Part shown: piece after piece, positions 2,146-32,022 of the stretch
Layout of the letters: each line of letters opens with the position of its first letter
Numbering within the stretch: the first letter of the stretch is position 1
From: Opitutales bacterium
GTDB taxonomy: Bacteria; Verrucomicrobiota; Verrucomicrobiia; Opitutales; UBA2995
Direction of reading: 5' to 3'
DNA: 32,776 nucleotides
Assembly: GCA_022824405.1 (NCBI GenBank)
Contig: JAJDZZ010000073.1
Location: forward strand, 1 to 32,776
Program-made: the position numbers and the translations under genes
Notes under the pieces: model-generated
What the model was told of the DNA's origin: nothing
The model's input: only the letters and a program-made list of their open reading frames with translations
Database searches by the model: none

Positions 2146-2605
2146 GAGGAGAGAGGAGAGAGGGAAGAGGGAAGAGGGAAGAGGAAAGAGGGAAGAGGAA
2201 AGAGGAAAGAGTTTAGTGGGCGGCTGCGCCGCCAATCGTGATCGTTATCGTGATCCTGATCGATAGGAAAGTGTTGGGAGTTCGGTTATCGGAGGTCAGA
2301 AATTGCCTCTCGCAAAGAGGAAACCACAGAAGGCACAAAAAACACAAAAGAAAGGCGCCGTTGGCGCCAGTTTCAGTGGTCAGATTTGGAAGAGTTCAGT
2401 AATAAGTTGTCGGTTGTCAGTGACAATTTACGATAGCGAAAGGAGGGGGGACATTCCTGTCCCCCATTACCCTAAAATAGGGGGTTGGAAAACCCGCCCT
2501 CCGTTATTTTCCAGCTGAAAATTCAATCCGTACTTATCCGTGCCCATCCGTGTAATATGTGGTCAGTGGTCAGAAATTGCCTCTCGCAAAGATCCCCAAG
2601 ATTTT
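2146..2605. repeat. Intergenic repeat mosaic after alr
   Basis: No gene is seen in this gap. In order: GAGGAAA/GGGAAGA 7-base tandem (2146-2212); GC hairpin GGCGGCTGCGCCGCC (2219-2233); AATCGTGATCG words (2234-2267); CTCTCGCAAAGAGG with ACCACAGAAGGCACAAAA (2304-2352); hairpin GGCGCCGTTGGCGCC (2354-2368); TCAGTGGTCAG/TTGTCAG words (2375-2425); palindrome GGGGGACATTCCTGTCCCCC (2446-2465); GGGTTGGAAAACCCGCCCTC word (2482-2502); ATCCGTACTTATCCGTG words (2525-2563); and a second CTCTCGCAAAG (2581-2591). Each word recurs elsewhere in the window. Confidence 0.85.
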
Positions 2606-5514: not shown

Positions 5515-5842
5515 TTTAGTTGTTAGTGAAGAGTGGAGAGTGGAGAGCTTTTTGACCCCCTCAGAATTGACTCCCGCAAAGCTCGCCAAGAAGCGCAAAG
5601 AGGAAACCATATAAGGCGCCGTGGGCGCCAATTAGGAATTAGGAATGAGGAATTAGGAATGAAAAGGCAGGGAGAATTAACCACGGATAGGCACAGTTAA
5701 GTCGGGATTGAATTTTCAACAGGAAATCAAAGGAGGGCGGGTTTTCCAACCCGCCTTATAAATGCAATGGCGAACCCACCTCCCGTCGTGGAAAACAAGA
5801 ATGTATGTACACTTTCCTCTTTCCTCTTTCCTCTTTCCTCTT
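5515..5842. repeat. Intergenic repeat mosaic after the DUF1800/DUF1501 pair
   Basis: Module order: TTAGTTGTTAGTGAAGAGTG words (5515-5547); CTCCCGCAAAGCTCGCCAAG (5571-5602); hairpin GGCGCC-GTG-GGCGCC (5615-5629); AATTAGGAAT repeats (5630-5661); ACCACGGATAGGCACAG (5680-5696); a long word (5704-5791) containing GGGCGGGTTTTCCAACCCGC that matches 15074-15153 in inverted orientation; and TTTCCTC 7-base tandem (5813-5842). A short membrane-protein frame (5841-5933, minus) lies just beyond it. Confidence 0.85.
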
Positions 5843-6112: not shown

Positions 6113-7708
6113 TTTATTCTTTGCTGGTCCATTGCAACCCAAGGCCTGAACGGCGTAGAACACCTGAGCCTGGTCTGGGCGGATGAGTTTGAATACACCG
6201 GACTGCCCGACGCCAATAAATGGAGTTACGATGTCGGCGGCCATGGCTGGGGAAATAACGAGTCGCAATACTATACCCAAAACAGACCGGAGAATGCCCG
6301 AGTCGAGGATGGCGTCCTGATTATCGAAGCCCGCCAGGAAGCTTTTCAAAATAGGAGGTACACCTCTGCCAGGGTGATTTCAAAGAACAAGGGAGACTGG
6401 AAATACGGGCGTTTCGAAATTCGAGCCAAATTGCCGCGAGGTCGCGGAACCTGGCCGGCCATCTGGATGTTGCCCACCGATTGGGTCTACGGCGGCTGGC
6501 CTGACAGCGGGGAAATCGACATCATGGAGCACGTGGGCTACAACATGCATCACATTCACGGTTCCATCCACACCGAACGTTTCAATCATATTCAGGGGAC
6601 CCAGATCGGTTCGAGCCTGAGGAGCCGCAACGTGGACACCGAATTCCACGTCTATGCCATGGAGTGGCGGCCGGACCGCATCGATATATTTTTGGACGGA
6701 CAACGCTATTTTACCGTGTCCAACGATGGGAGCGGGTTTGAAGCATGGCCCTTCGATCAACGTTTCCATTTGCTGCTGAATATCGCGGTTGGCGGGAATT
6801 GGGGAGGCGCTCAGGGTATCGACGATTCCATCTTCCCGCAACGCATGGAAATCGATTACGTCAGGGTTTATGCCTTTGAAGATTATGACCATTCGATCAT
6901 CCAGACCGTTCCGGGGCGGGTTGAGGCGGAGGATTTCAGCGATCAGTCCGGCATTCGCCTGGAGGAAACCCGGGATTCCGGGGGTGGCAGCAATGCGGGT
7001 TACCTGGATAAGGGAGATTGGGCCGAATACTCCTTGGATGTTACCATACCAGGCCGTTACGCCTTCGACCTGCGGTATGCCAGCCCGAGAGGAACTTCGG
7101 GGATCGAACTTTCCATCGACTCCGAAACGGTGGCTACCTTCGAGCCCTTTGACGCCACCGGAAATTGGCAGTCGTGGAGAACCCAACGATTGACCGAAAG
7201 GGAACTGCCAGCCGGCAAAATCACCCTCCGCATCAACATCCTGGGGCAACCGGAAAGCGATTTGAACTACAATTGGCTCGACGTATTGCTTTTGCAACCG
7301 CACGCCTTGGCCGAACCCTTTGCCGACCCCGACCGGGACGGCATTCAGAATATTTACGAATACGCCTTCGCCTTGGACCCCTCGAAGAACACCTCCCCGA
7401 AACTGCTGCCCTTTGGTTACACCGTAAAAAAACCGAACGGGACCTATGTCGGGATCACCTATCGTCAACGCATAGGCGGCACCGGTAGAACCGGAATCGA
7501 CTACACCGCCGCAGCGGTAACCTATCGCGTGGAAGATTCCGGCAACTTGGCCGAAGACTCCTGGAAAACGATCGCGACTCTTTTAAACCCCATCGGCGAG
7601 CCCCGAGACAATGGCGACGGCACCGAAACCGTGTCCGTCGAATTCGCCTTCCCCATCAATGTCGGTAGACGGTTTCTCCGCCTAAAGCTGATCACAGAAG
7701 AAAATTAA
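6047..7708 (+). CDS. Secreted GH16 endo-beta-1,3-glucanase (laminarinase) with CBM6
   Basis: Extracellular endo-glucanase, 553 residues as drawn. The GH16 domain (about residues 45-280) starts LVWADEFEYTG and has the catalytic signature GEIDIMEHVG, with nucleophile Glu156 and acid/base Glu161. WAIWML-like and WxYDVGGHGWGNNESQYY segments are typical of laminarinases. A CBM6 domain follows (about 285-420: GRVEAEDFSDQSG...DWAEYSL...YNWLDVLL), then a verrucomicrobial C-terminal region (DPDRDGIQNIYEYAFALDP...FLRLKL). No ATG exists before the domain: the drawn start is GTG at 6047. The leader PLSLCSLSPLWLFILCW is encoded by an interspersed repeat module and functions plausibly as a signal peptide. 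The stop TAA is followed directly by a GC hairpin repeat. The family call is firm; the start is uncertain. Confidence 0.93.
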   Translation: MLFLVIFPKSPLSLCSLSPLWLFILCWSIATQGLNGVEHLSLVWADEFEYTGLPDANKWSYDVGGHGWGNNESQYYTQNRPENARVEDGVLIIEARQEAFQNRRYTSARVISKNKGDWKYGRFEIRAKLPRGRGTWPAIWMLPTDWVYGGWPDSGEIDIMEHVGYNMHHIHGSIHTERFNHIQGTQIGSSLRSRNVDTEFHVYAMEWRPDRIDIFLDGQRYFTVSNDGSGFEAWPFDQRFHLLLNIAVGGNWGGAQGIDDSIFPQRMEIDYVRVYAFEDYDHSIIQTVPGRVEAEDFSDQSGIRLEETRDSGGGSNAGYLDKGDWAEYSLDVTIPGRYAFDLRYASPRGTSGIELSIDSETVATFEPFDATGNWQSWRTQRLTERELPAGKITLRINILGQPESDLNYNWLDVLLLQPHALAEPFADPDRDGIQNIYEYAFALDPSKNTSPKLLPFGYTVKKPNGTYVGITYRQRIGGTGRTGIDYTAAAVTYRVEDSGNLAEDSWKTIATLLNPIGEPRDNGDGTETVSVEFAFPINVGRRFLRLKLITEEN

Positions 7709-7981
7709 GGCGCGCTGAAGCGCGTTAGGAATTAGGAATTAAGAATTAGGAATTGGGAGAAAGGTAAACCAATAGAGTAGTCGAGGGGGCCAGCCTGCAG
7801 GCCAGCCCGCCTCGCCCCTCATCGAACCGAGTATACAGATTTCGAAAGGCACGAAAATCAATCGTGATCGATGGAATAGGGATTTGACTCTCGCAAAGAG
7901 CGCCGAGCTACGCAAAGAAGGAACGGACAGGAATGTCCCCCCTCCGTTATTAAATCCGTACTCATCCGTGTAATCCGTGGT
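7709..7981. repeat. Intergenic repeat mosaic after GH16
   Basis: Begins at the base after the stop codon: hairpin GGCGCGCTGAAGCGCG (7709-7724), TTAGGAATTAGGAATTAAG words (7725-7757), a CCTGCAGG-centred palindrome (7787-7807), AATCGTGATCG (7859-7870), CTCTCGCAAAGAGCGCC (7888-7904), GGACAGGAATGTCCCCCCTC (7925-7944) and ATCCGTACTCATCCGTG with ATCCGTGG (7953-7980). No gene is seen. Confidence 0.85.
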
Positions 7982-9468: not shown

Positions 9469-9572
9469 ACTTTCGCAAAGCTCGCCAAGAGCGCAAAGGA
9501 AAAGAGGGAACCACAAAAGGCGCGCTGAAGCGCGCCAATTAGGAATGAGGAATTAAGAATGAGGAATTGGGA
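9469..9572. repeat. Intergenic repeat mosaic after the GH-A gene
   Basis: Shows the module order very clearly: ACTTTCGCAAAGCTCGCCAA with GAGCGCAAAG, then GGGAACCACAAAA, then hairpin GGCGCGCTGAAGCGCGCC (9519-9536), then AATTAGGAATGAGGAATTAA repeats (9537-9572). The same order appears at 5571-5661. Confidence 0.88.
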
Positions 9573-13330: not shown

Positions 13331-13522
13331 TTGTGCATTTTGTGGTTCCTCTCTCCCAATTCCTCATTCTCAATGATTTGCGGCCTTGGGCGCCCCTCTC
13401 TGCGTCCTCTGCGAGCTTGGCGAGAGTCAATGCTTCATCCCGTCCATCCTGTCCATCCATGTTCAATTCCTAATTCTCTTCTCCCTCTGTGTTCTCTGTG
13501 CACTCTGTGGTTATTCCTATTT
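13331..13522. repeat. Repeat mosaic at the 3' end of the GPH transporter gene
   Basis: Read on the minus strand, away from the transporter: GGCGCCAAATAGGAAT (holding the TAG stop), AACCACAGAGTGCACAGAG, AATTAGGAATTGAACATGG, GGACAGGATGGACGGGATG, GACTCTCGCCAAGCTCGC, GGGGCGCCCAAGG, GAATGAGGAATTGGGAG and AACCACAAAATGCACAAAAG. Confidence 0.82.
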
Positions 13523-14863
13523 GGCGCCTGCCCCTCCCCGGCGCTTTTCCAATTTCCGGCGGATCTCCCTGGCTTTGGCCTGGGAAATTGGGAAGGTAAA
13601 GATGGCCCACATGGCTATGGCGGAGGTCAGGACGGGGACGGCCACATCGAATAGTTTCATCAGAAAAAAGGTTCTTTCGCTCTGACCGCCTCCCAGTTCC
13701 ACGTCGAATCCGGTAAGGTTGAGGACGTGGCCGGAAAGCGCCAGGGCCAGAGCCATGCCCAATTTTACCACCCACCAGAAAATGGAGCCGAACATGCCCT
13801 CCCGCCGGTGGCGTGTTTCCAGTTCATCCAGGTCGCACACGTCGGCAACCATTGATCCCATCAAGGTAAACAAGCTTCCCAAACCAAAGGCGATGAGGGG
13901 GGCCGTAAACAATATCAAATGGGGATGTTCGATGCTGTAACAAACCCACTTCAATGCATAACCCACCAGGGAAACACCGATACAAATGAAAAAGGTCCGG
14001 CGTTTGCCGATACGGGTGGCCAACCAGGTGGTCAAGGCAATGACACAAAAAGTGGAAATGGTGGTGGCGGTGCCAAACCAGCCGATCAATACACTGGCTT
14101 TGTCATTGTCCCCCTCTGAAACATAATAAATCAAAACAAAGGAGGAAAAGGCCGAGACCAGCATGAACCCGTTGAAGACGAGGAAGGTGGCGATACAGAG
14201 TTTGACAAAGGGCAGGCATTTGATGGCGCTCAAAAACCCCTTGAAGAAGTCTTTAATGTGCTCCGGCAAACCGGACATACCTTTTTCTCCGGACTGGCCG
14301 GAGTCCTTGGCCCGGGCTATGTCTATCATTCTTTCCCGGCAAAAGATGGCCGGGACGATCCCGGCTACCACCACGAAGACCCCTATCAGTATTGCCAGAC
14401 TCCGGGCCCCTTCCACCGGGTCGGAAAAGAACCGGTCGTTTTGCATGAAGGCATAAAACCAGGGAAGGGCCAGCCATACGCTCTGTCCCATGAAATTGGC
14501 CGTGCCCATGACCCGGGTTCGCTCATGATAATCGGGAGTCAACTCGTAACCCAAAGCTACCCAAGGGGTTGCAAAAGCGGTGTAGGCCAGGTAAAAGAGG
14601 ATGGACCCGATGAGAAAAAACCAGAAATAGAAGTTCTCGCTTTGCCCCTCGGGGAGTTGCCACAAAAGGGCAAACAATATTCCGGAAAATAGCGCCCCAA
14701 AGAAAATGTAAGGCCTCCGTCGACCCCACCTGGAATGGGTGCGATCCGAAAGGTAACCCATGATGGGATCGGTCAGCGCATCCGTCAATCGGGGAAGGCC
14801 CATCAGGGTGCCGACCAGAGCCGGGTTCATTTTCAGGCCCTCGATCAGGATTATGGACATCAC
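13517..14863 (-). CDS. GPH-family sugar:cation symporter
   Basis: Inner-membrane MFS transporter of the glycoside-pentoside-hexuronide type, which imports glycosides with a cation. The motif LTDALTDPIMGYLSDRTHSRWGRRRPYI (loop 2-3) is diagnostic, and about twelve hydrophobic segments follow. The drawn start is GTG at 14863, but this cuts the first helix. The frame continues upstream (LLQKLFYGCGALVNNLLGAAIGV), matching the family N-terminus, without any ATG, GTG or TTG before a stop near 15034. An AGGAGG (minus strand, 14946-14941) lies five bases before a GTT codon at 14935, so a non-canonical or lost start is likely. The C-terminal GGAGAK and TAG come from a GGCGCC/AATAGG repeat. Position between the glucan-binding and LacI genes suggests beta-gluco-oligosaccharide uptake. 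Confidence 0.88.
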   Translation of the reverse strand: MMSIILIEGLKMNPALVGTLMGLPRLTDALTDPIMGYLSDRTHSRWGRRRPYIFFGALFSGILFALLWQLPEGQSENFYFWFFLIGSILFYLAYTAFATPWVALGYELTPDYHERTRVMGTANFMGQSVWLALPWFYAFMQNDRFFSDPVEGARSLAILIGVFVVVAGIVPAIFCRERMIDIARAKDSGQSGEKGMSGLPEHIKDFFKGFLSAIKCLPFVKLCIATFLVFNGFMLVSAFSSFVLIYYVSEGDNDKASVLIGWFGTATTISTFCVIALTTWLATRIGKRRTFFICIGVSLVGYALKWVCYSIEHPHLILFTAPLIAFGLGSLFTLMGSMVADVCDLDELETRHRREGMFGSIFWWVVKLGMALALALSGHVLNLTGFDVELGGGQSERTFFLMKLFDVAVPVLTSAIAMWAIFTFPISQAKAREIRRKLEKRRGGAGAK

Positions 14864-14962: not shown

Positions 14963-15295
14963 GGATGCCGGGTTCTTGATGCTGGTTGCTTGTTCGTGAC
15001 CTTTGCGAGAGTCAAATTGTTCAGTTGTCAGTTATCAGAGGGGAAAGGAATGCGGACTTTCTTGCTTGCCACGGCGGGAGGTGGGTTCGCCGTTGCCTTT
15101 ATAAGGCGGGTTGGAAAACCCGCCCTCCGTTAATTTCCAGTTGAAAATTCAATCCGTACTTATCCGTGTAATCCGTGGTCAATATTCAGCGACTAGTTGC
15201 CAGTGCCGAGTGGCTAGTGTATTGTTCCTCATTCCTAATTGGCGCCCTTGGGCGCCTTTCCTCTCTCTGTGTCCTCTGTGCCCTCTGTGGTTAAT
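14963..15295. repeat. Repeat mosaic between the transporter and LacI genes
   Basis: Holds CTGGATGCCGGGTTCTTGAT (14961-14980, inside the 5' open frame of the transporter), TTTGCGAGAGTC (15002-15013), TTCAGTTGTCAGTTATCAG (15019-15037), a long word (15074-15153) that matches 5704-5791 inverted, ATCCGTACTTATCCGTG (15152-15168), a 57-bp stretch (15171-15227) nearly identical to 31872-31928, CATTCCTAATT (15230-15240), hairpin GGCGCCCTTGGGCGCC (15241-15256) and CTCTGTG...CCTCTGTGGTTAA (15262-15294). The last two are part of the LacI frame. Confidence 0.88.
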
Positions 15296-16350
15296 CTCCT
15301 CATTGGCACCCTTGTAGCTGAGGTTGCGCCCGCGATCTTCTTTCCCGAAACCTGGATGTGCCGACGGGCCGAGTTCGGCTCGGAAATTCTCCTCTGCAGG
15401 GACAATACCGAAGACATGCCCATGTCTTTAAACGGAATCCGTACAGTAGTCACCTGGGGAGTTCCCGGGGGTGGTTTGATTCCATCGAACCCGGTCACCG
15501 AACAATCGCCCGGTACCGACACCCCGAGTTTTTTCAATTCATCGATCAAATGATAGGCTTGGTGATCTGCCGCGCAGACCCACGCAGTAACGCCTAGTTT
15601 CACATAATGGGCAACTTTTTCAGCCAAATCCTCCAAACTGATCTGTTCTTCATTGCGGGCATTTAAGACCAGGTTGGGATCGAACTCCAATCCGAGGCGA
15701 TACAAATTTCCAACATAAGCTCCCAGCCTCCGTTCTACCCACGGGGTTTCGATGCTGTACTTCCAGGTCAGAAATCCAATCCTCCGGTGACCCAAGTCCT
15801 TGAGGTGCCGCACCATCGCTCCAATACCGCGATCCTCATCGGGATTAATCGAATCCAGTTCAACCTCCTCGTAGTTATCCAATACCGATACCGTGGGAAA
15901 CTTGGTCATGAGGTTACGAACCGCCTTGGGGTTAAACGGGTATATCAGGATAATACCCCTCCAGGTGGATGAACGGGCACGGGGCACAATCTTCCGCGGT
16001 CGGGGACCGGGAAGAAAACGGGATGGTTCGACATAGTGAATTTCGATCCTCAGCTTCTCGGCCGCGGCTTTTTCACTGATGCCGTTAATGATTTCCCCCG
16101 CCGTATCGTCGACCCGTTTTCTTTCGGATGCTGCGGCTCCGACCAGGACGCTGATGGTATTGCGAACCGTTCTCTGAGAAGCCTTCACATTCCTGGGGGC
16201 AGTGTATTCATAACCTAACTCCGCCGCTAACCGGAAGACCCGGGATCGGGTTTGAGGATTGATTTTCGGATGATTGGTAAAACAACGGGAAACCGTTGTT
16301 CGGGACAGTTTCAGGAGCCTGGCGAGGGTTTGCTGGTCTACTTTGGCCAC
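15235..16350 (-). CDS. LacI-family transcriptional regulator
   Basis: DNA-binding regulator, 371 residues. The N-terminal HTH (QQTLARLLKLSRTTVSRCFT...INPQTRSRVFRLAAELGY, residues 6-48) is followed by a periplasmic-binding-protein-like sensor domain (GIILIYPF..., HLKDLGHRRIGFLT, CSVTGFDGIKPPPGTPQVTTV). The drawn start is GTG at 16350; a GC hairpin (16356-16370) occupies the place of a Shine-Dalgarno. The family-type end is around GATSATRVP. The last 19 residues (LTTEGTEDTERGKAPKGAN) and the TAG stop are encoded by the ACCACAGAG, GGCGCC-hairpin and AATTAGG repeat words. It lies between the transporter and TonB receptor and probably controls the glucan island. Confidence 0.92.
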   Translation of the reverse strand: MAKVDQQTLARLLKLSRTTVSRCFTNHPKINPQTRSRVFRLAAELGYEYTAPRNVKASQRTVRNTISVLVGAAASERKRVDDTAGEIINGISEKAAAEKLRIEIHYVEPSRFLPGPRPRKIVPRARSSTWRGIILIYPFNPKAVRNLMTKFPTVSVLDNYEEVELDSINPDEDRGIGAMVRHLKDLGHRRIGFLTWKYSIETPWVERRLGAYVGNLYRLGLEFDPNLVLNARNEEQISLEDLAEKVAHYVKLGVTAWVCAADHQAYHLIDELKKLGVSVPGDCSVTGFDGIKPPPGTPQVTTVRIPFKDMGMSSVLSLQRRISEPNSARRHIQVSGKKIAGATSATRVPMRRLTTEGTEDTERGKAPKGAN

Positions 16351-16355
16351 AATCA

Positions 16356-16535
16356 GGCGGCTTCGCCGCCAGAGGAAAGATGAAAGAGGAAAGAGGAAAA
16401 CATCCTATCAATCCTATTATTGCATGTTTCAGTTTCGATCACTATCACGATCACGATTGGCGCGTAGCGCCTCCCTTTGTGTCTTTTCATTCCCTTCTTT
16501 CCACTTTACTCTTTCCACTTGGCGCCAACGGTGCC
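16356..16535. repeat. Repeat mosaic between LacI and the TonB receptor
   Basis: GC hairpin GGCGGCTTCGCCGCC (16356-16370), GAGGAAA tandem (16371-16400), TTTCGATCACTATCACGATC (16433-16452), hairpin GGCGCGTAGCGCC (16459-16471), a TTTGTGTC word (16476-16483), CTTTCCACTTTACTCTTTCC (16497-16516) and hairpin GGCGCCAACGGTGCC (16521-16535), which lies 15 bases after the TonB receptor stop on the minus strand. Confidence 0.82.
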
Positions 16536-29344: not shown

Positions 29345-29563
29345 CCTCTCGCCAAGATCGCAAAGAGCGCAGAGAGAGAACGGAGGGGGGACATTCCTGT
29401 CCCCCGCCATGTCTTTCAAGAGGGGGACCCCGCCTTCGCCAGAGGTCTACGGCGTGGTGGGGGACAGGAATGTCCCCCCTCCGTTAGTACATCCGTGCTA
29501 ATCCGTGAAATCCGTGGTTATTCTCCCCCAATTCCTAATTCCTAATTGGCGCCCCTGGGCGCC
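29345..29563. repeat. Intergenic repeat mosaic between the response regulator and the ROK kinase
   Basis: CTCTCGCCAAGATCGCAAAG (29346-29365), then two GGGGGACATTCCTGTCCCCC palindromic words in inverted order (29382-29405 and 29459-29482) enclosing about 53 unrelated bases, ATCCGTGCTAATCCGTG (29491-29507), CCAATTCCTAATTCCTAATT (29528-29547) and hairpin GGCGCCCCTGGGCGCC (29548-29563), eight bases after the ROK gene stop on the minus strand. Confidence 0.87.
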
Positions 29564-31732: not shown

Positions 31733-32022
31733 AACCACAGAGAACCCAGAGGACACAGAGGGGGGAGAGAAATGGCCTCTCGCAAAGAGCGCCAAGAACA
31801 CAAAGATTCTTAGGTAAAAACATGGATGAACAGGATGCACGGGATTTGGATAATCCGTGTCTATCCGTGGAATCCGTGGTCAATATTCAGTGACTAGTTG
31901 CCAGTGCCGAGTGGCTAATGTATTTTTCTAATTCTTTGTGCCTTTGTGCCTTTGTGCCTTTGTGCCTTTGTGCCTTTGTGCCTTTTCATTCCTCATTCCT
32001 AATTGGCGCGCCTCAGCGCGCC
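31733..32022. repeat. Intergenic repeat mosaic before the Hsp15-like gene end
   Basis: AACCACAGAGAACCCAGAGG (31733-31752), CTCTCGCAAAGAGCGCCAAG (31777-31796), ACATGGATGAACAGGATGC (31820-31838), ATCCGTGTCTATCCGTGG (31853-31870), a 57-bp stretch (31872-31928) 54/57 identical to 15171-15227, the TTTGTGCC array (31935-31982), CATTCCTCATTCCTAATT (31987-32004) and hairpin GGCGCGCCTCAGCGCGCC (32005-32022), two bases after the Hsp15-like stop on the minus strand. No gene is seen. Confidence 0.88.
31935..31982. repeat. 8-bp tandem repeat, six copies of TTTGTGCC
   Basis: Six copies of the unit that forms the larger array at 2622-2717, in the same orientation. It is inserted between two AATTCCT-type words, which suggests expansion inside an existing module. 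Confidence 0.93.

Follow-up and report, generated by a model that had tools for sequence, protein, structure and literature searches.

The closest described counterparts of the repeats analyzed here are the heptamers GGGAATC / GGGGA(T/C)T of Xanthomonas and Nostoc, which occur at about 180 loci per genome, preferentially in four units and mostly in intergenic regions (Rehm et al. 2015, PMC4692102). They lie closer to the 5' neighboring ORF irrespective of the orientation of that ORF, being found within 50 bp of stop codons when on the sense strand and upstream of ORFs when on the antisense strand, and their G-tracts of at least three residues permit G-quadruplexes (PMC4692102). The TAACTGA heptamers have a patchy distribution in Beggiatoaceae, Cyanobacteria, and Bacteroidetes; they carry stops in all three frames and can thus overlap ORF ends only (MacGregor 2015, PMC4679880). 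REP elements and BIMEs are short intergenic palindromes, present in hundreds of copies near or overlapping coding regions, which sometimes provide the stop codon; Opitutus terrae, which belongs to the same phylum as the organism studied here, has abundant GTAG repeats (PMC3733652).

The DNA analyzed in the present work is a stretch of 32,776 nucleotides (the window) from the draft MAG of an Opitutales bacterium (3.39 Mb, 92 contigs, 96% complete). The window harbors six copies of an element consisting of a GC hairpin, AA, and TKARGAA heptamers, and three further hairpins whose tail has decayed or differs (Table 1). The original prediction had placed these nine hairpins at or near the stops of the GH16, Hsp15-like, ROK, TonB, LacI, transporter, alr, DUF1501, and GH-A genes, and all the distances proved correct on re-reading against the ORFs and all GC-rich hairpins of the window; the repeated tail that it described is clear in the six copies and not in the other three. 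An Rfam 15 scan of the window gave no match at the gathering score.

Table 1. Hairpin-heptamer copies, related hairpins, and REP-like palindromes in the window.
Feature	Position	Strand	Description
alr hairpin	2219..2250	+	GGCGGC-TGC-GCCGCC + AA, then TCGTGA hexamers in place of TTAGGAA; 74 nt past alr
DUF1501 copy	5615..5660	+	GGCGCC-GTG-GGCGCC + AA + 4 heptamers; 101 nt past DUF1501 stop
REP-like palindrome	5736..5755	.	GGCGGGTT-TTCC-AACCCGCC; in the DUF1501-downstream intergenic region, past outward-pointing words; few genome copies of this type
GH16 copy	7709..7753	+	GGCGCGC-TGAA-GCGCG(TT), directly 3' of GH16 stop (7708)
GH-A copy	9519..9567	+	GGCGCGC-TGAA-GCGCGCC + AA + 4 heptamers; 82 nt past GH-A stop
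Transporter copy, decayed	13514..13544	-	GCGCC...GGCGCC + AA + ATAGGAA; its TAG is the transporter stop codon
LacI copy	15225..15256	-	GGCGCC-CAAG-GGCGCC + AA + 2 heptamers; LacI-type ORF ends at its TAG
TonB receptor hairpin	16521..16535	-	GGCACC-GTT-GGCGCC, one mismatch; 15 nt past stop (16551)
REP-like palindrome	29459..29478	.	GGGGGACA-GGAA-TGTCCCCC; type usually located at the word-orientation switch point
ROK copy	29531..29563	-	GGCGCC-CAGG-GGCGCC (29563-29548) + AA + 2 heptamers; 8 nt past ROK stop (29572)
Hsp15-like copy	31988..32022	-	GGCGCGC-TGAG-GCGCGCC (32022-32005) + AA + 2 heptamers; 2 nt past stop (32025)

The GH16 copy, whose two outermost stem pairs are G-U/G-T, carries the heptamers TTAGGAA, TTAGGAA, TTAAGAA, and TTAGGAA, in this order. 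The Hsp15-like copy continues into a AAAGGCAC octamer array, and the tail of the TonB receptor hairpin is AAGTGGAAAG rather than TTAGGAAT, the TTAGGAA tail being absent.

The unit of the Xanthomonas/Nostoc repeats is near-identical in sequence, being very close to AGGAATT, and the element shares with them the tandem arrangement of at least two heptamers, a mostly intergenic location, a mode of four units, and the same polarity. It differs from them in that the Opitutales consensus units have GG only, contain stop codons, and are usually preceded by a GC hairpin, and in that about eight other words follow the same polarity in the Opitutales genome; no mention of a preceding palindrome or of a multi-word mosaic was found in PMC4692102. 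With the TAACTGA repeats it has in common stop-bearing heptamers, an overlap limited to ORF ends, and a patchy taxonomy; unlike it, those repeats have another sequence, lack the hairpin, and, in the best-studied genome, are found immediately upstream of genes, directed at the start codons. Like REP elements, it is a short intergenic palindrome present hundreds of times, frequently close to coding regions or overlapping them; it differs from them in lacking the GTAG/CGTC tag, in bearing a heptamer tail, in having no consistent linkage to RAYT genes, and in its gene-relative polarity. A literature search for the word sequences and for intergenic mosaics of Verrucomicrobia, its scope excluding most subscription journals, retrieved no earlier description either of a palindrome joined to heptamers or of the polarity shared by several words that is reported below.

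Probing the whole genome with the pattern GGCGCN{4,16}GCGCCAATTAGGAATNAGGAAT retrieved 97 exact matches, against 0 for the reversed control. A looser definition yielded 254 elements in 2.4 Mb (71% of the genome), the portion on which the element and gene-edge statistics were calculated, with genes called by a simple hexamer-model heuristic. In these elements, the consensus begins with GGCGCC or GGCGCGC, followed by a loop of 3-4 nt, the complementary stem, AA, and one to five units (mode four) of T[T/G]A[G/A]GAA; the hairpins have a median predicted stability of -10.8 kcal/mol. When arrays of at least two units were sought without requiring the hairpin (n = 231), 183 had one directly upstream. 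Most units (641/694) are TTAGGAA, TGAGGAA, TTAAGAA, or TGAAGAA, each with TAG, TGA, or TAA, and 26 of the 694 are devoid of a stop codon. Since seven nucleotides are a multiple of three plus one, consecutive heptamers change frame, and ORFs entering the element terminate inside it, as do those of LacI and the transporter. The 5' flank of the hairpin is purine-rich (A at -1 in 210/254, A/G from -2 to -9), and the 3' flank is AATTAGG.

The stems had been read as showing covariation of an RNA structure. They are truly paired, and pair 6 does covary: with the outer four pairs anchored, C-G accounts for 113 and G-C for 44 of the 172 elements, which gives 157 paired, against 96 if the two positions were independent. 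On the other hand, pair 5, like the outer five pairs as a whole, shows almost no variation, so that the covariation is modest and essentially reflects two stem types; two founder stems account for it as well as ongoing compensatory change does. The loop variants differ in frequency (GGG 23, CAAG 16, GAT 14), as expected for copies amplified inside one genome.

The enrichment of the element next to stop codons was borne out: the first 50 nt past a sense stop contain 51 elements, whereas random placement, repeated 500 times, gave 16.1 ± 3.8 and never more than 27. Among 224 placed elements, 186 are intergenic and most of the others stand at ORF ends; of the 38 located in ORFs, 34, which add to the 51 above, occupy the extreme 3' end on the strand of the gene, where the stop codon of the array terminates the ORF. 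Nevertheless, when only intergenic elements with a gene on the hairpin side were considered, the stop of that gene faced the element in 96 cases and the start in 90, and in these start-facing copies the sense transcript would bear the complementary strand. The hairpin is intact in 90% of the copies within 60 nt of stops, in 75% of those farther from stops, and in 82% of the start-facing ones, and the stop codon is kept in 98% of the stop-facing units versus 96% of the start-facing ones. Moreover, the hairpinless word CACAGAGG is found within 20 nt of a stop in 19% of cases versus 10% for the hairpin-heptamer.

These data do not sustain the idea of an RNA structure built for stop codons. An intrinsic terminator was rejected, in agreement with the original statement that the element is not a standard one: on the tail strand, at least five T within the 8 nt following the hairpin occur in 0/254 elements, with a mean of 1.7 T. 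An RNA 3'-end function as the cause of conservation was also rejected, since integrity is alike at start-facing copies, and the same holds for a stop cassette selected as such, because start-facing copies keep their stops almost equally and show an excess of frame coverage too. Arrays with stops in all three frames number 20 versus 12 and 27 versus 20 expected at stop-facing copies, and 28 versus 18 at start-facing four-unit ones; the former excess hints at some selection for stops, although the latter is present as well. The element points away from the nearest gene at starts and stops alike, and is therefore a general outward repeat rather than a dedicated end-of-gene signal. Its proximity to stops is one aspect of a broader outward polarity, and to say that it is positioned at stop codons would mislead.

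The intergenic regions of this genome are mosaics of about nine repeated words, the hairpin-heptamer being one of them. The words (with their period) include TTAGGAA (7), AAAGGCAC (8), those of the CACAGAGGA, CACGGATTA, and TCGCAAAG types (about 9), TGATC(N) (6), and others. On either side of a region, reading the words 5' to 3' leads away from the adjacent gene; there is one switch, often marked by a REP-like palindrome. The hairpin-heptamer is oriented outward from the gene in 80% of cases, both at stops and at starts. Of the 221 regions that contain two or more words, 213 have every rightward word before every leftward one, with a single switch; randomized orientation would give 107 and a shuffled order 118. 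This polarity is present in tandem, convergent, and divergent regions alike. In a congener (Opitutia bacterium 287ce, G001, JAABVD01), 45/52 regions are polar versus 22 expected. The reference strand of TGATC was fixed after the orientation result had been seen. The words were partly picked by eye, a caveat answered by a 10-mer count independent of the word list, in which 40% of 10-mers have at least 80% of their occurrences in one outward orientation versus 0.5% in a strand-randomized control. Palindromic REPs are among the least oriented 10-mers, and the REP-like palindromes (GGGGGACA, CCGGC..GCCGG) lie between the two arms in 23/27 (10.9 expected) and 28/32 (11.4 expected), i.e., about twice the expectation. 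The same word occurs in both arms of a region in 68 cases, against 75 ± 6 by permutation.

A general purine asymmetry of intergenic DNA was rejected as an explanation: wordless regions have none at stops and a weak one (0.51-0.53) at starts. The sharing of one word by both flanks of a gene was likewise discarded (30 versus 30 expected). As for the order of words going outward, CACAGAGG precedes TTAGGAA 31 times to 11 and CACGGAT 20 to 1, and TTAGGAA precedes CACGGAT 43 to 20 and TGATC 41 to 16; the preferred order is CACAGAGG, then TCGCAAAG / AAAGGCAC / TTAGGAA, then CACGGAT and TGATC.

The comparison with the congener, whose proteins are about 90% identical, covered 63 intergenic regions in synteny: words are absent from both genomes in 47, present in both in eight, and confined to the genome of the window in five and to that of the congener in three. 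The counterpart in the congener often contains other words, or none. Where the situation is simplest, an unrelated spacer is replaced by a mosaic, as beside the gene at C79:102128, with 34 nt in the congener versus 268 nt here; one junction (C75:6899) is joined at GATGCGCCAA, which is the same in the gene and in the repeat. Furthermore, multi-word blocks of 100-460 bp, 85-98% identical, are common to unrelated intergenic regions.

Other genomes were surveyed by exact matches. The three-unit array was retrieved from 10/388 genomes of the phylum, with a patchy distribution (control 0), and reaches a high copy number in four distant ones (109, 32, 26, and 16). The hairpin-tail core was found only in this genus among 53 relatives, and no hairpin was found before the arrays taken from the distant genomes, in which 17/21 arrays are closer to the gene on their 5' side, some of them 7-9 nt from a start codon. 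At two loci of one distant genome (L219 and L220, G287), the arrays start right after apparent intrinsic terminators, with a GC hairpin and 7-8 T.

The similar integrity at starts and stops, the polarity relative to gene edges, the unpaired arms, the shared multi-word blocks, and the replacement junctions all point to a process acting on DNA. We consider that there is about an even chance that the element is a DNA repeat with a fast turnover, which spreads when recombination or repair copies a template and whose presence at gene ends is tolerated. The repeats would spread and turn over through copying between intergenic regions, probably by microhomology-primed repair or recombination; a 3' end broken at the edge of a gene would then be elongated outward on a donor that contains words. 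Such an extension would keep the polarity, leave the two arms independent, and replace sequence rather than insert it cleanly. A position adjacent to stops would be tolerated because the arrays provide stop codons; they close incoming reading frames and can overlap and terminate the 3' end of a gene. Stop-facing copies may act on RNA, but any such effect would be secondary. Profile searches of the genome for reverse transcriptase (PF00078, RVT_1) and Ku (PF02735) found neither, and so pointed to no specialized end-extending or end-joining pathway; telomerase-like or retron synthesis was rejected for lack of an RVT_1 match, and NHEJ for lack of a Ku match.

Templated copying maintains the polarity but, alone, does not account for its origin. 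We tentatively propose, as a reading that is less likely than not, that a directional process anchored at gene edges adds words, starting at the 3' ends of the two gene blocks that flank a region and proceeding outward, the two arms meeting at the central palindrome. If this were true, such a process would operate in this lineage and here and there in other bacteria, with a single polarity switch per word-bearing region, and would represent a general, undescribed route to the formation and replacement of intergenic sequence in bacteria. A single repeat of this kind is unremarkable; what matters is the shared rule, according to which unrelated words are all oriented outward, with one switch per region and a content differing between congeners. 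If general, this rule would explain why the Xanthomonas/Nostoc heptamers hug stops on one strand and starts on the other, and why such repeats resemble gene-end signals without being so; the creation and renewal of bacterial intergenic DNA would, in turn, become testable through it.

It is rather unlikely that the element is of the REP type and moved by a RAYT (Y1 transposase) recognizing the hairpin and its conserved tail as an end. Its size, copy number, and intergenic location are indeed REP-like, and the genome encodes seven Y1_Tnp proteins, one of which (C19, L006) has a copy just 3' of its gene, on one side only; the other six loci have no adjoining hairpin-heptamer, several loci being cut by contig ends. 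The tag is missing at the stem base, heptamers occur without hairpins in other genomes, the simple cases show replacement and not clean insertion, and a gene-relative polarity is not predicted by this mechanism. Because only one has a nearby copy, the seven transposases fit the palindromic REPs better than the hairpin-heptamer. A Y1-transposase (RAYT-like) domain is found in frame inside a long ORF that starts like a type I restriction HsdR (L001, C47:12596-15826); it is surrounded by GGGGGACT and GGCGGGTT palindromes, a candidate for the true REP-RAYT pair of this genome.

An RNA-level 3'-end element, in which the hairpin would halt RNA polymerase without a U-tract or block 3' exonucleases and the stop-rich tail would catch readthrough, is unlikely. 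The enrichment just past sense stops and the stable predicted hairpins suit it, and U-tract terminators, strictly defined, follow only 9/730 gene ends, which leaves room for another signal; yet just 50 of the same 730 ends (about 7%) bear a copy of the element. The lack of U-tracts, the similar integrity of start-facing copies, the hairpinless words equally near stops, and the arrays of relatives without a preceding hairpin all argue against it. The last two observations apply equally to the structure originally predicted, since such words lie as near stops or nearer and the distant arrays stand at gene ends.

If the intergenic regions contained nested MITE-like elements bounded by terminal inverted repeats, the outward polarity would follow automatically, and an inverted pair of CACAGAGG does occur in a convergent region from another family of the order (L221, 2120-2150 / 2303-2335). 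We regard this as very unlikely, however, and the permutation test disfavors such nesting, as the arms in the genome of the window are unpaired, sharing words no more than by chance. Least probable of all is an array bound by a CsrA- or S1-type RNA-binding protein (AGGA-containing repeats) for mRNA regulation: most units contain AGGA and a similar role has been proposed for the TAACTGA repeats of Beggiatoaceae (PMC4679880), but about half of the copies would show the complement in the sense transcript, and the remaining bases of the unit are conserved too.

Two minor observations concern the coding potential of the words. The octamer array CCTTTGTG (i.e., AAAGGCAC on the opposite strand) spans positions 2620-2728 and 31933-31993 of the window with up to about 13 units; it has no stop codons in the frames read and is oriented outward from genes in 96% of cases genome-wide. 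The C-terminus of the LacI-type protein, TTEGTEDTERGKAPKGAN (window 15235-15300, minus strand), is coded by CACAGAGG units, the hairpin, and the heptamer stop, and protein tails coded by repeat words are also found elsewhere in the genome.
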